Positions 10,225-15,845 of a DNA stretch of 64,000 nucleotides are shown piece by piece; position 1 is the stretch's first letter; every line of letters begins with the position of its first letter. The notes under the pieces are model-generated. The model had not been told where the DNA came from, ran no database searches, and saw only the letters and a program-made list of their open reading frames with translations. The position numbers and the translations under genes are program-made. Origin of the DNA: Arachis hypogaea (Eukaryota; Streptophyta; Magnoliopsida; Fabales; Fabaceae); NCBI RefSeq assembly GCF_003086295.3, contig NC_092051.1, positions 22,191,940 through 22,255,939 of the forward strand, read 5' to 3'.

Positions 10225-11128
10225 CTAAACCATGTAGAGCCTTTCGACATGCAATGTGATTGTTTTCACATTAACATGCTCCTGCCATGTGCGGTGGGCC
10301 AAATTCTCTCTTCTTCCTTCCATGTACCTGAGTCTTGAGAGCACAACATCATTACCTTGTGTGTCATTTGAACAACCAACACCACTCCTAGCCTCCATGA
10401 CTGATAAGATATCCTTCCCAATAAACAGTATTGGCATGTAAAGAATACCAAAACTTGAAACTTTTATCATCTTCTCCCATTTTATTTCGTTATCCGAAAC
10501 ACCTTTCATTTACCAAACCAGAATCTGTCTTGTAAACCCAGCATTGAAATATGAAACGTAACCAATGCCGTCATTGAAATGAGTAAATGAGTTGTAATTG
10601 GATTTCACTTCCGCGGGTATCTCGGCCTCGTGAAACATTCTCTGACGAAGATTGAATTTCATTACTGTTTGTGGCTGGAGGAAGTTAGGACCTCCCCACC
10701 CTATCCAGTACAAAATGTCGTCGTTCACAACATACTTGGGACCGATTTTGTTTACTTTTGTATCATATGTCCCTGCGTGAGTTCAATCTCTTTCGAAAGA
10801 TATATAAAGAGACCAGGATAGTGTTTGTTGAGAATAATGCTTCTTGAAAATATGAAGAATCTGATACTCAACTGTGTCCTCCATAAATCCGAAAGCATAT
10901 ATCGAAACAGCATATCCTAGGTGCTTGCTGGCTTCCACTACAAGATTTATATATATTTGTGAGTATTTTTTAGTGGGGGTTTTTAAAAACCTCTTCAATA
11001 TATTTTATATGTGGCATTTTGATAAACTCCCACCAAATACCTAACAATAAAATCCTACTGTTATCAATTATCACATAATTAAAATTTCTTTCAAAATCCA
11101 AGAAACACTCGAAAAGAAAGAAGGGTGA

Positions 11129-11357
11129 GAGCTCACTAAAACCCTAAAGCTCTCCATCGCCATCTCCATCGCCACCATCGCCGCCGCTAAAGTTAATCTC
11201 CTTTCTGCTTCTGCCATAAAGCTATTGAAATCGAGCCAAGGCGCTTCCTTCATCAACGCATTTTCAGATCTAATTGCAACGCCCAAGCCTCTGAGATCGA
11301 GAGAAATCGCTTCTTCGGTTAACTCTCCTTGGCCAATGACGCTCGTGTTTTCCATCG
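11129..11357 (-). pseudogene. Captured exon-like fragment of unknown origin
   Basis: A GC-richer segment reads on the minus strand as a protein-like frame starting MENTSVIGQGELTEEAISLD and ending in a repetitive AMVAMEMAMES stretch. I do not recognise the family. It sits in the left part of the CACTA element in the opposite direction to the other captured fragments. That could mean a separate capture, or that the plus strand (5' untranslated exon of another gene) is the meaningful one. Confidence 0.4.
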
Positions 11358-11813
11358 ACATTCTATCCTTTCTGTACGCTCTTCTTTTCACTCATTTTCA
11401 ATTTCTAGTTCTCCTTCTCTTTTTCCTGTTTATTCATTTTCTTTGTTTTTAATTCTCAGATTCTGAATGATTTGTTATGTGATATAACATTTGATGAGTT
11501 TTATTATCTCTTGGTTGATAACATTGTTTCAAATTCTCAAGCACTCCAAGTGTTCGATGAATTGTTTATTCTCAAGCACTCCAAGTGTCATGAAAAATAG
11601 GTACAACCGGGTAACTAAAACTTGTGAATTATCTGCAGATTTTTTATAACTAGTATGATACTAAATTGCTTGAAATAATCAAATTCAAAGTGTGTTCATG
11701 AATAGATTCAGTAATAATATTGTAAGAACTAATGAGAAGGTTCTTATTTATAACAATCATTCTTTTCCACCATTTTAAATGTGATATTGCACTGATGTGA
11801 TGTCATTTTTCAG

Positions 11814-12183
11814 GAGAGGAATGAGAGGCTATTTTATAAGCTTCTGATTGATAACATGGAGGAACTGCTTCTTGTTGTTTACACTCCAATTGTTAGAGAA
11901 GCCTGCCAGAAATATGGAAGCATTTTTCGTCGACTGCAGGGTCTATACATTAGATTGAAAGTGAAGTATGGTTTTTTATTTATATTTATTGTTCTGTTTT
12001 CATCATTTAGCCTTTGAGGTGAAAAAAAGAAAGAAAGAAAGAAAGATAAGAAGAGATACTAAGTGTTTGAGACTCTACAGAGGCTAGATCCTTGAAGTAA
12101 TGAAAAACTGGCTAGAGAAAAACACTCAAGTTGTTGTCACTAATGACGAGCAAATATTAGGACTCGGAGATCTTGGTTGCCAG
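11814..12183 (+). pseudogene. Captured NADP-dependent malic enzyme fragment, two exons
   Basis: Exon A (11814-11966) follows a CAG acceptor and encodes ERNERLFYKLLIDNMEELL and then REACQKYGSIFRR. These match the N-terminal catalytic region of plant NADP-malic enzyme, which decarboxylates malate to pyruvate. Exon B (about 12086-12183) encodes ILEVMKNWLEKNTQVVV and GLGDLGCQ and ends exactly at a GT donor. The order and splice phase are those of the parent gene; all downstream exons are missing. Several conserved residues are changed (for example VGEAC-type sequence reads VREAC), so it is not under evident constraint. The fragment lies inside the CACTA element. Confidence 0.88.
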
Positions 12184-12314
12184 GTAAACATAGATACTGA
12201 TTGTGGTTTCTTTCTTATTTAATTTGAAGTTTGTTGTTTGAATTTCCCATCATCAATGCATCTCTATCTAGTTTATTTTGATATATTAGTATTTGTATAT
12301 ATTTTATTTTGCAG

Positions 12315-12429
12315 GTTGTTGTTTTCACAGATATTAGTCTTGAGAAAGCTATTGAGTTCAATGATTTTTGCCACACTCATCAGCTTCCTATTGCTTTTAT
12401 CAAAACTGAAGTTAGAGGTTTTTTTGTAG
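12315..12429 (+). pseudogene. Captured ubiquitin-activating enzyme E1 (UBA1-type) fragment
   Basis: After a GCAG acceptor the frame reads VVVFTDISLEKAIEFNDFCH and then PIAFIKTEVRG. This matches the N-terminal adenylation region of plant E1 enzymes, which activate ubiquitin at the head of the ubiquitin cascade. The exon is cut within its coding sequence, and the join lies a few bases upstream of an ARF splice acceptor. The reading frame stays open into the ARF exon. Inside the CACTA element. Confidence 0.82.
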
Positions 12430-12541
12430 AGGAAAAGCCAGTTCTGGACTCAGAACTTTGGCATGCATGTGCTGGTCCCCTTGTTTCTTTACCTGTAGTT
12501 GGGAGCCATGTGGTGTACTTTCAACAAGGTCATAGTGAACA
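12430..12541 (+). pseudogene. Captured auxin response factor (ARF6/8-like) exon
   Basis: Encodes SELWHACAGPLVSLPVVGS and VVYFQQGHSEQ, the start of the ARF B3-domain region that is nearly invariant across plants. The fragment keeps the parental splice acceptor (TTTGTAG before 12430) and a GTATGT donor right after HSEQ, so it is a clean exon capture. The parental proline of the VYFPQG block reads Q. The B3 core, middle region and PB1 domain are absent. Directly fused to the E1 fragment. Confidence 0.9.
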
Positions 12542-13174: not shown

Positions 13175-13176
<2 letters not shown>

Positions 13177-13247
13177 TTTTTTTTTTTGTTCCCTTTCTTT
13201 TTCTTATTTGGTTTTGAGTTTTGACAATGCATTAGTTGCTTCTTGTA

Positions 13248-13320
13248 GGAACTTGGCATCAAAAGGATTTTCTAGAACACTTTCTCCCTCAATTGCCAAA
13301 TTGAAATACTTGGTTAGCTT
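13248..13320 (+). pseudogene. Captured leucine-rich-repeat receptor kinase exon
   Basis: Between a TGTAG acceptor and a GTATGT donor the frame encodes NLASKGFSRTLSPSIAKLKY and then LVSL. This is the LRR 'ASxGFSGTLSPSIxKLKYLVSLxLQNN' pattern of short-ectodomain LRR receptor-like kinases. Only one LRR-sized exon is present; kinase and membrane segments are absent. It is the fourth recognisable host gene fragment in the CACTA element. Confidence 0.72.
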
Positions 13321-14281
13321 GTATGTTGTTACTGTCATAGATTCACATTTTTTATGAGATTTGATAATTCTGATATTGTACGAATCCAAGAATCAAATTA
13401 CCATAACTTATCTCAAGTAGATTAATGGTTTTAGCTCTTGAATTTGCAAAAAAAAAATGATTATTTGATTTAGTGCTCTTGGCTAATTTAAGACTGTGCT
13501 AATGCAGAAGATGCCTTGCTTCCAATTCCTAAGGTTTCTATGATCTTCTGAGAAAGAGAAGCATTTCAAGACTCTTCAGACAAAAATACAGCAGATGGTT
13601 TGTTTCACTTGATTTTATTTATTTATTTATTTATTTGTTGTGTGTGAAAGTGGTTTCCTTTTAGCTGGTTATTAACTTAAACCCTCCCTTTCAGTTTGGT
13701 TATTTCTTTATAATTCTTTCTTCATTTTCTCTATAGGAAGATATTATTCTGAGTTGGGTTTGTAAAGATGATTGATCCTTTTAAGTCGAGGTGTTTTCCA
13801 CAACTTGCTCAGTTTAGGGCATTGCATTTGGCAGGCTATTGCAAAGATTATTTTGTTGATTGTGATATCAATGATTAGTTGATGAATAAGATAGATGCAT
13901 GACATACATTATTCATCAGTAAGATGAAACAACTTTGTTTTTTCAAACATTTTTCCATTGCTTTATTCTGTGATTCAATTGACTTAAGTGAGTTTGAAAT
14001 GTGGGAACCCTTCATATATCACTAAATGCATTTATTTTTCTAAATTGATCCCAAATTGCAGAATGGAAATCCTTATCTGGCCCTTTATATGAGGTAATTT
14101 ACAACACTAGTATTGCAAATATTAACCTGAATATTCTTCTTGCTGCCTATATTTTCTTTTTCTCTACATGTTCTTTTGCATATTTGTGGATGTGTCTGAG
14201 CCTAAGAGCCGAAAAAGAAAGAGCTCAATTTCATTTATCATTGCTTCTAATAACCTTTGCTCTTTGTTGTTTTTGTTGTAG

Positions 14282-14402
14282 GTATGAGAAGGACATGCTT
14301 GTATTTATTGGCTGCAGTCACAATGTGACTATAGAAGAAGATGAGCAACTAAGACAACTGAAGTCAGTCACTGGAAGGAGAAAGAGATTAATGGGACTGT
14401 GA
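14282..14402 (+). pseudogene. Captured terminal exon-like fragment, family not recognised
   Basis: Following a TGTAG acceptor the frame reads YEKDMLVFIGCSHNVTIEED, then EQLRQLKSVTGRRKRLMGL and a stop. It looks like a genuine last exon carried with its stop codon, but I cannot assign a family. Located before the subterminal repeats of the CACTA right end. Confidence 0.45.
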
Positions 14403-15845
14403 GGAGATTGCTTGGAGGCTTCCCGTTAACTCCTAGATTCCCTGTTACTTAGAGCACTTGGTTAATGCAGGATGAATTTTGTTAAACTTGTTGACCAATT
14501 ATATGATATTTTTAGTATGGTTGAAAAATACTCCCTAAAGGTCTTCTAGGATTGCATTCATATTTTCATTTTGAGATTTTTATGTAATTAGATGATATTG
14601 AAATATTGAAGTTGTTTTATTTTACTTTTTAAAGAAAAACAATAATAGTTATGTAGAAGAATATAATATGGAATTATGTTTGAAACGATTGATATTGCGA
14701 ATTTTTTTATATATAAAGTTATTTCTTATATTGAGAAATTATGTTATAAAAGATTTAGTTTTTAAATTTTAATATTAAAAAATAAATTTTTAATTTGAGA
14801 ATATGTAAATTAGATGAGATTAATGAATGATTTGAAATTAAAAATAAATAAATAATTACAGGGTTGTGGAGGTTTGAAACTCACACAATAGTTTATTTTT
14901 GTTAAATTATAAAATCAATTTATGGGGTTTTAAACTGTCACAAAAGTGATTTAAAATTGTCACAAAAGTTTAATATAAAACCCCCCACTAAACACACACA
15001 AAACCCCCCACTGAATAGATTGTGGAGGTTTTTAAAAACCCCCCACAAAAGACCTCGTGGCACTTCAAATTTTGGGAGTTTTAGAAACCTCCACAAACTA
15101 TTTGGTGGGGTTATAAACCTCCACAAATAGGAGAAAAAACCTCTACAAATAAACAAAAATCTTGTAGTGTTCGTCTGTTGCATATCGCCTCTTATGGGTG
15201 AGAGGATTCCAGATGAGTAATCTTGTATTTAAGCCACCTATTGAAATCCTCAAGCAGATGTTTCCATGGTTGGAGTCGATGATTGCATAAAATCCATATT
15301 GGTTAATGTCCATGGGTACGCTGAATGGCACCTGACGACCTGAATCAACAAAAACTCTAATGAACCAAATGAAGTTCTGATCACTGGGGGGTTAACCAAC
15401 CCCAATGATCACACTCCTGTCCCGTTGTTTGTTGTGTTGATCATTTTCCTTCACAAAAAGTGGAGTACATAACCTGAAATTTCAAACTTTGCTCAAACTC
15501 CTGCACCTCCTCGGGTTTGCCTTCACAAGAATTTTCCAAATGAGATTTTCACCAAGATGAGAAAGATGATCTCTCATGAGTGGAATGTCACTCATTATGG
15601 AGATGTAGTTGATTTTTTTGCTAATAGCCTTAAGTGAAATGGAAAATATGCTTCGTTTTGTATTTTTTTTTTTTTGTCTTTCATCCTATTTATATATTAA
15701 ATAAGGCAGAAATGACTCTTGGACAGGTGTCTATTTTGCATACTAATCTCAATTATACACAGAAATTGATGGCACATATTCATAACGCTACATTGCATTC
15801 AGATTGGATATAATTAAAAAGTTTAGCCCTTATAATTATATATAA

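Follow-up and report, generated by a model that had tools for sequence, protein, structure and literature searches.

Pieces of seven host genes in a very probable Pack-type CACTA transposon of Arachis hypogaea

The stretch of Arachis hypogaea DNA analysed here (64,000 nucleotides of NC_092051.1, positions 22,191,940 to 22,255,939 of the forward strand; hereafter the window) holds what is very probably a non-autonomous Pack-type CACTA (En/Spm-like) DNA transposon with pieces of seven host genes, every one of them lying in the 5'-3' direction of the element. It shows the tested defining features of a Pack-CACTA, namely the ends, target-site duplication and asymmetric subterminal repeats of the CACTA superfamily, together with host gene sequence that matches seven parental loci elsewhere. 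A first-pass annotation, made from the letters of the window alone, had proposed a Pack-CACTA with exons from at least four unrelated genes, most of them in the same direction, and had likened it to soybean Tgm-Express1. The class, the multi-gene capture and the comparison are supported by the sequence, while the number of genes rises to seven and the shared direction extends to all of them.

Perfect 13-bp terminal inverted repeats (TIRs) that begin with CACTA (CACTACAAGATTT) bound the element, and a TTC stands next to each of them; the ends and the TTC duplication had been read at first pass (Table 1). Matching 3-bp duplications were found in all three copies checked with both ends, being TTC in the window, AAC/AAC at C14:45748982-45753644 and TAT/TAT at C3:37971742-37975925, so that the ends recur with different flanks, a point on which the first-pass annotation had made its reading depend. 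The asymmetry of the subterminal repeats was confirmed with an AACCYCCAC-like motif, a loose pattern devised in this analysis, which occurs twice in the left 150 bp, eight times in the right 320 bp and nowhere between (it is also present 10 times in the remaining 59.8 kb of the window). The genome searched comprises 2.557 Gb in 440 contigs. C1-C20 behave like chromosomes, and matches to them often come in Cn/Cn+10 pairs; we infer that such pairs are A and B homeologs and label them so below. Across this genome the exact 13-mer of the TIR occurs 380 times (193+187) vs 66 times (37+29) for a reversed-pattern control. Both end modules are multicopy: a query from the 5' module (11070-11590) gave 41 matching rows at 77-100%, with one place appearing twice (40 of 113 candidates scored), and for the 3' module at least 27 places matched at 88-93% in addition to the C14 sister, with 40 of 1024 candidates scored. 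No transposase domain was matched in the 10 scanned of the 15 stop-to-stop open reading frames (ORFs; at least 60 amino acids) that overlap the element, the interior of which consists mostly of host pieces, and Rfam gave 0 matches in 10800-15300.

The insertion itself can be followed in the flanks. When these are joined over a single TTC, the full 500 bases match C6:2595635-2596134 at 95%, the net length being unchanged, and positions 1-496 match C11:17086201-17086695 at 93%. Both places are unoccupied sites, and C6 is the apparent homeolog of C16, the window's chromosome. In all, 39 rows in the genome matched the joined flanks, 2 of them the window's own halves and 37 others. The element interrupts a host reading frame on the minus strand (window 8800-10935 and 15170-17400), which looks F-box-like by eye, though Pfam returned nothing above cut-off for it; next to the element this frame has a stop as well.

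Table 1. Coordinates of the element and its parts within the window; other places are given as contig and position, with locus numbers in brackets.
Feature	Position	Strand	Remarks
Whole element	10936..15169		4234 bp; very probably a non-autonomous CACTA, Pack type
Left target-site duplication, TTC	10933..10935	.	Direct reading; empty sites at C6 and C11
Left TIR, CACTACAAGATTT	10936..10948	+	13 bp, perfect inverted match to right end
Multicopy 5' module: terminus, subterminal motifs, 5' untranslated region (5'UTR)-like exon, possible donor at 11374	10936..11573	+	41 matching rows; exon and donor by reading the sequence
NADP-malic enzyme piece, exons 11814-11965 and 12081-12183 with introns	11586..12217	+	Pfam PF00390
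Ubiquitin-activating enzyme E1 (UBA1) piece, exon from 12315	12217..12426	+	95.7% to C1:6686950 (L079)
Auxin response factor (ARF) piece, exon 12430-12542 plus intron	12422..12683	+	Likely parent C10:653700 (L080), aligned over 12422-12683
Filler between ARF and LRR pieces, ~19 bp	12684..12702	.	Same in three other copies compared
Leucine-rich repeat (LRR) receptor-like gene, exon 1 (signal-peptide-like exon 12759-12860) and intron	12703..13131	+	Likely parents C8:48300329 (L078), C18:132416448 (L077)
(AT)n tract at the place of missing LRR exon 2	13120..13174	.	Exon 2 kept in C14 sister, 84% to both parents
LRR receptor-like gene, exon 3 region (exon 13249-13312)	13164..13423	+	93.9% to L078, 97.3% to L077
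Filler repeat	13417..13492	.	86-92% to six other places besides family copies
WD-repeat/Utp12-like exon 13508-13597, tentative	13491..13605	+	90.5% to C1:101257850 (L081)
MADS-box gene piece, intron 1 to first bases of exon 2	13600..14069	+	84.6-84.7% to C13:13303395 (L069) and C3:9955953 (L070)
O-fucosyltransferase piece: exon end 14062-14093, intron, exon from 14282	14059..14506	+	87.8-93.8% to C1:94187088 (L071), C11:149206588 (L068)
Multicopy 3' module with most subterminal motifs	14510..15169	+	At least 27 places at 88-93%
Right TIR	15157..15169	-	Perfect reverse complement of CACTACAAGATTT
Right target-site duplication, TTC	15170..15172	.	Direct reading; empty sites at C6 and C11

For each piece a probable source was found, as a pair of matches outside the elements that fits A/B homeologs. 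The pairs are C8/C17 for malic enzyme, C1/C11 for UBA1, C10/C20 for ARF, C8/C18 for LRR, C1/C11 for the WD-like exon, C3/C13 for MADS and C1/C11 for O-fucosyltransferase; six of the seven follow the Cn/Cn+10 pairing and that of malic enzyme does not. Both members were compared for malic enzyme, LRR, MADS and O-fucosyltransferase and one member for UBA1, ARF and the WD-like gene, and more distant paralogous matches were also found for malic enzyme, ARF, LRR and MADS. An ordinary host gene region or pseudogene would likewise present its exons in one direction and with splice sites, and the first-pass annotation had allowed that the fragments might prove to be a single annotated gene. This is next to impossible, being refuted by the seven separate parental loci, the bounds set by TIRs and target-site duplication, the empty sites, and the sister copies with other flanks.

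The NADP-malic enzyme (two exons), E1, ARF and LRR pieces had been recognised at first pass and are present; Pfam or Protein Data Bank (PDB) matches, in part those of the parental loci, identify them. The likely parents of the malic enzyme piece lie at C17:132346775 (L054, aligned over 11771-12217) and C8:16576985 (L057, aligned over 11804-12217); the preceding 11586-11770 matches other element copies and some further places, and not these parents. UBA1 has a second match at C11:4090728 (96%); the protein of its C1 parent matches E1 chains of the PDB, in which the 37-amino-acid exon itself found no match. The ARF exon matches ARF5/ARF1 chains, with a second genomic match at C20:2018869. Pfam returned nothing above cut-off for the UBA1, ARF or LRR exons of the element, nor for the ARF parent exon; the matches of a minus-strand frame at 12415-12726, all below cut-off, were set aside and ascribed to an ATT-repeat tract. 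The identity of the LRR piece comes from Pfam or PDB matches and from reading of the ORF. Its two source loci had at one stage been taken for element copies, which left 12703-13131 without a parent (11 of 11 matches taken for elements), and this was rejected, as L078 reads as an LRR ectodomain gene. What had been called an LRR-kinase fragment is given here as an LRR receptor-like piece, with no kinase domain in the part of the parent gene examined.

The two pieces that the first-pass annotation had left unrecognised are now assigned to LRR exon 1, the WD/Utp12-like exon, the MADS-box intron piece and the O-fucosyltransferase exons. The WD-like piece has a second match at C11:142200151 (91%); the Utp12 match of its likely parent in Pfam is weak (E 0.0058, below cut-off), its parent found no match in the PDB, and the name is tentative, as is the name WDR43/UTP5-like. 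The C13 parent of the MADS piece encodes a protein with SRF-TF and K-box, and the parent protein of the O-fucosyltransferase piece matches PF10250 (E 3e-97). Another stretch, C10:12803960-12804560 (L085), is a copy of that part of the MADS parent which runs from intron 1 into exon 2 (95% over 505 bp). Interior stretches with no assigned source are 11574-11770, the 19-bp filler, 12974-13062 (an extra stretch within the LRR exon 1 piece that is absent from both parents), the (AT)n tract and 13417-13492.

Intron sequence is retained in the malic enzyme, UBA1, ARF, LRR, MADS and O-fucosyltransferase pieces, and the source was therefore genomic DNA. Spliced or reverse-transcribed RNA would account for the sense orientation of all pieces; it is nevertheless an extremely improbable origin given the introns kept from six of the genes, and precise loss of parental introns was not seen. 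Neither does the stretch skipped within the O-fucosyltransferase piece run from splice site to splice site: it starts within an exon and stops shortly before an intron ends.

In four of the five resolved joins the parental sequences overlap by 5-8 bp. The overlap is 5 bp between UBA1 and ARF (probability under random placement 0.008), 8 bp between MADS and O-fucosyltransferase, where ACAGAATG stands at the acceptor of both (0.0002), 5 bp at the internal O-fucosyltransferase join at 14459-14463, which skips ~380 bp of the parent (0.007), and 6 bp between WD and MADS (0.003); at the malic/UBA1 join it is 1 bp (0.47). Three of these joins are captures and two, the internal O-fucosyltransferase and the WD/MADS joins, are internal deletions. 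Compared with the window, the C13 and C14 sisters have an additional ~92 bp of WD intron and 91-93 bp of MADS intron, and the window's WD/MADS join is therefore a later deletion between TTGTTT repeats rather than the join made at capture. The internal deletion join of the O-fucosyltransferase piece recurs in such a piece at C10:28007250-28008450 (L084), where the match to the element stops level with 14530 and the 1.2 kb examined contain no TIR core (CACTACAAGA).

In the search for other copies, advised in the first-pass annotation, eleven were found to have the 5' module together with parts of the malic-UBA1-ARF-LRR set. The C14 copy is a near-full sister with the same order of pieces, which makes assembly errors at the joins unlikely, and in a tree of 14 rows the window groups with C13 and C14 (support 100/99). 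Apart from the parents, and from MADS or O-fucosyltransferase relatives, the WD-MADS-O-fucosyltransferase set was found only in these three (40 of 138 candidates scored). In the 5' module the copies at C7:23601428 (23.60 Mb) and C3:103031659 (103.03 Mb) are almost the same, with end branches of 0.0015 each, and the family has therefore been mobile recently. The C13 sister (C13:68337852-68379851) is split by ~42 kb close to the (AT)n tract and matches the element no further than the position of window 14470. At C1:63699367-63714546 two family ends lie 15.2 kb apart, with malic/UBA1/ARF cargo on the left and a middle of ~9.6 kb that could hold an insertion or coding DNA. A 5'-module copy at C10:4090397-4090946 has, ~30 kb downstream and in the same orientation, a Transposase_21 match (C10:4060363-4060992), the nearest seen by eye and possibly unrelated. 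Paired family termini ~0.3-1.0 kb apart occur at C11:35671849/35672639 (L030), C18:39950553/39951573 (L035) and C17:73244841/73245106 (L038), which is the kind of arrangement needed by the tandem-insertion capture model described for Pack-TYPE elements in PMC8903248 and PMC13317346.

The fragments were also aligned to their parents for dating, as had been advised at first pass. Kimura two-parameter (K2P) distances between window and parents are 0.034/0.025 in the LRR exon 3 region, 0.054/0.057 in the exon 1 region (12703-12970; L078/L077), 0.044 for UBA1, 0.060 for ARF (over 12427-12568), 0.075/0.065 for O-fucosyltransferase, 0.096 for the WD-like piece, 0.106/0.101 for MADS and 0.145/0.139 for malic enzyme (L057/L054). 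The captures appear older than the A/B split because this divergence (0.025-0.145) exceeds that between the two parents of a pair (0.010-0.020, for pairs with both members compared), with the caution that transposons may change faster. Window and sisters are 0.015-0.025 apart in the three longer pieces, and the values for all six measured span 0 to 0.044. The MADS and WD pieces diverge more from their parents than UBA1 and LRR do (p=0.034 for MADS against the LRR exon 1 region), and with modest confidence we regard the cargo as a fusion of two cargo sets.

These observations suggest the following course of events. The element would presumably have been moved in trans by a CACTA transposase encoded elsewhere, and would have gained its pieces one or few at a time, either through error-prone repair of breaks or gaps or when neighbouring copies were excised aberrantly, strands being transferred at microhomologies. 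The malic-UBA1-ARF-LRR set would have formed before most of the observed copies diverged, and the WD/Utp12-MADS-O-fucosyltransferase set would have been added to it in the line that the window element shares with both sisters; the window copy would then have lost LRR exon 2 and parts of two introns. The element inserted in a host reading frame on its present chromosome. Several points weigh against parts of this account. The malic/UBA1 join has an overlap of 1 bp; in LRR exon 3 the window is hardly further from its B parent (6 changes in 249 positions) than the two parents are from one another (4 in 242); the pieces from which capture order is read are short and partly coding, and the MADS/LRR contrast is modest; the 3' halves of most other copies lie outside the comparison; and no Transposase_21 (tnp2) gene could be tied to the ends of the element among the 150 of 2557 candidates scored, such genes being abundant in the genome.

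When spliced, the predicted exons from malic enzyme, UBA1 and ARF keep to a single frame except for one TAG in the window copy, and GT and AG are present at the expected exon edges, though the exons were delimited by these dinucleotides; the first-pass observation of donors and acceptors holds in this sense. These features, along with the absence of that TAG from the most diverged copy (C19:66145674) and a ratio of nonsynonymous to synonymous change (pN/pS) of 0.55 between window exons and parents (p=0.030), could speak for a functional chimeric gene of malic-UBA1-ARF(-LRR) exons, kept by selection and spread by the transposon. We consider this very unlikely. The derived changes among 13 copies, 90 of them nonsynonymous (5 creating stops) and 31 synonymous, agree with the neutral expectation (p=0.38), as the pairwise ratio is 0.75, and an in-frame stop or frameshift is present in all six copies with the four exons, the window included. 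The pN/pS of 0.55 includes the constrained parent branch and a WD exon read in the wrong frame, and its count ignored two O-fucosyltransferase deletions that shift the frame between them, and it was set aside as a sign of selection on the element. Splice-site integrity was likewise discarded as a sign of function, being not significant (chance ~0.1 at these divergences, a rough hand estimate). The longest ATG-initiated ORF of the predicted transcript has 119 amino acids. Since codon changes among copies look neutral and stops and frameshifts recur, the captured exons are judged to be passengers, and we conclude that they give no sign of a working protein. They probably persist with usable splice sites, so that they might be spliced into transcripts without being maintained as a gene; transcription and splicing may occur, as they do in Tgm-Express1. 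Gene predictions in such genomes may include mosaics made by transposons.

All seven pieces of the window are sense to the element (sign test p=0.016, if captures are independent), and two more sense pieces in other copies, ATP_bind_1 (L055) and Lip_C (L039), bring the count to 9 of 9 (p=0.004, on the same condition). In an orientation scan of stop-free stretches of at least 42 codons from 14 loci, Pfam families at E<=0.01 numbered 12 among 132 sense members and 2, both marginal (0.0015 and 0.0082), among 124 antisense members, so that no antisense match in these 124 was convincing. Of the sense matches, those from L078, a parent gene, are discounted, DUF2645 and SKA2 are near chance, and DCB was not traced to a locus; the antisense set includes stretches from L078, and the scan includes L051, a possible element copy. 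It is a tentative idea, and on balance an unlikely one, that the family takes up or keeps gene pieces only in sense behind its own 5' module, which looks by eye like a putative promoter, 5'UTR exon and donor, and so acts as a mobile exon-trap transcription unit. If this were true, the orientation would come either from the capture mechanism, for example if genes are caught while being transcribed, or from antisense cargo being selected against. No published sense bias for Pack-CACTAs was found in the literature listings or in the available parts of PMC8903248 and PMC3288121.

With the source genes likely still present and a ladder of copies bearing subsets of the cargo, capture order, join overlaps and orientation bias become testable, and the family can address questions of Pack-CACTA assembly that are beyond the reach of a single element. 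Among the matches listed in the literature searched, which covers few subscription journals, there was no report of this family. The element would belong to the known Pack-CACTA kind, within which it is unusually well resolved; of the known systems, Tgm-Express1 and the Tpn1 family come closest to it. Unlike Helitrons, which have neither TIRs nor target duplications, the peanut element has both. Related copies of maize Helitrons resemble it in sharing subsets of gene pieces, which points to stepwise assembly (PMC3288121), and Pack-CACTA and other Pack-TYPE elements in being TIR-bounded and non-autonomous and in carrying coding DNA from several loci (PMC8903248, PMC13317346). The Tpn1 family of Ipomoea nil, with 339 elements and a putative autonomous element, TpnA1 (PMC5105172), is also made of non-autonomous CACTA elements with conserved ends, 3-bp duplications and an interior replaced by host sequence, and differs in its putative autonomous member, none being tied to the peanut family among the candidates scored. 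Tgm-Express1 of soybean is a CACTA of similar size (5.7 vs 4.2 kb) that holds exonic and intronic regions of five unrelated host genes and gives 12 alternatively spliced chimeric transcripts started at the promoter of the host gene (PMC1947982). Its cargo genes are different, and its transcripts have been shown; for the peanut element all seven pieces have been traced to probable source loci, and there are related copies for comparison.

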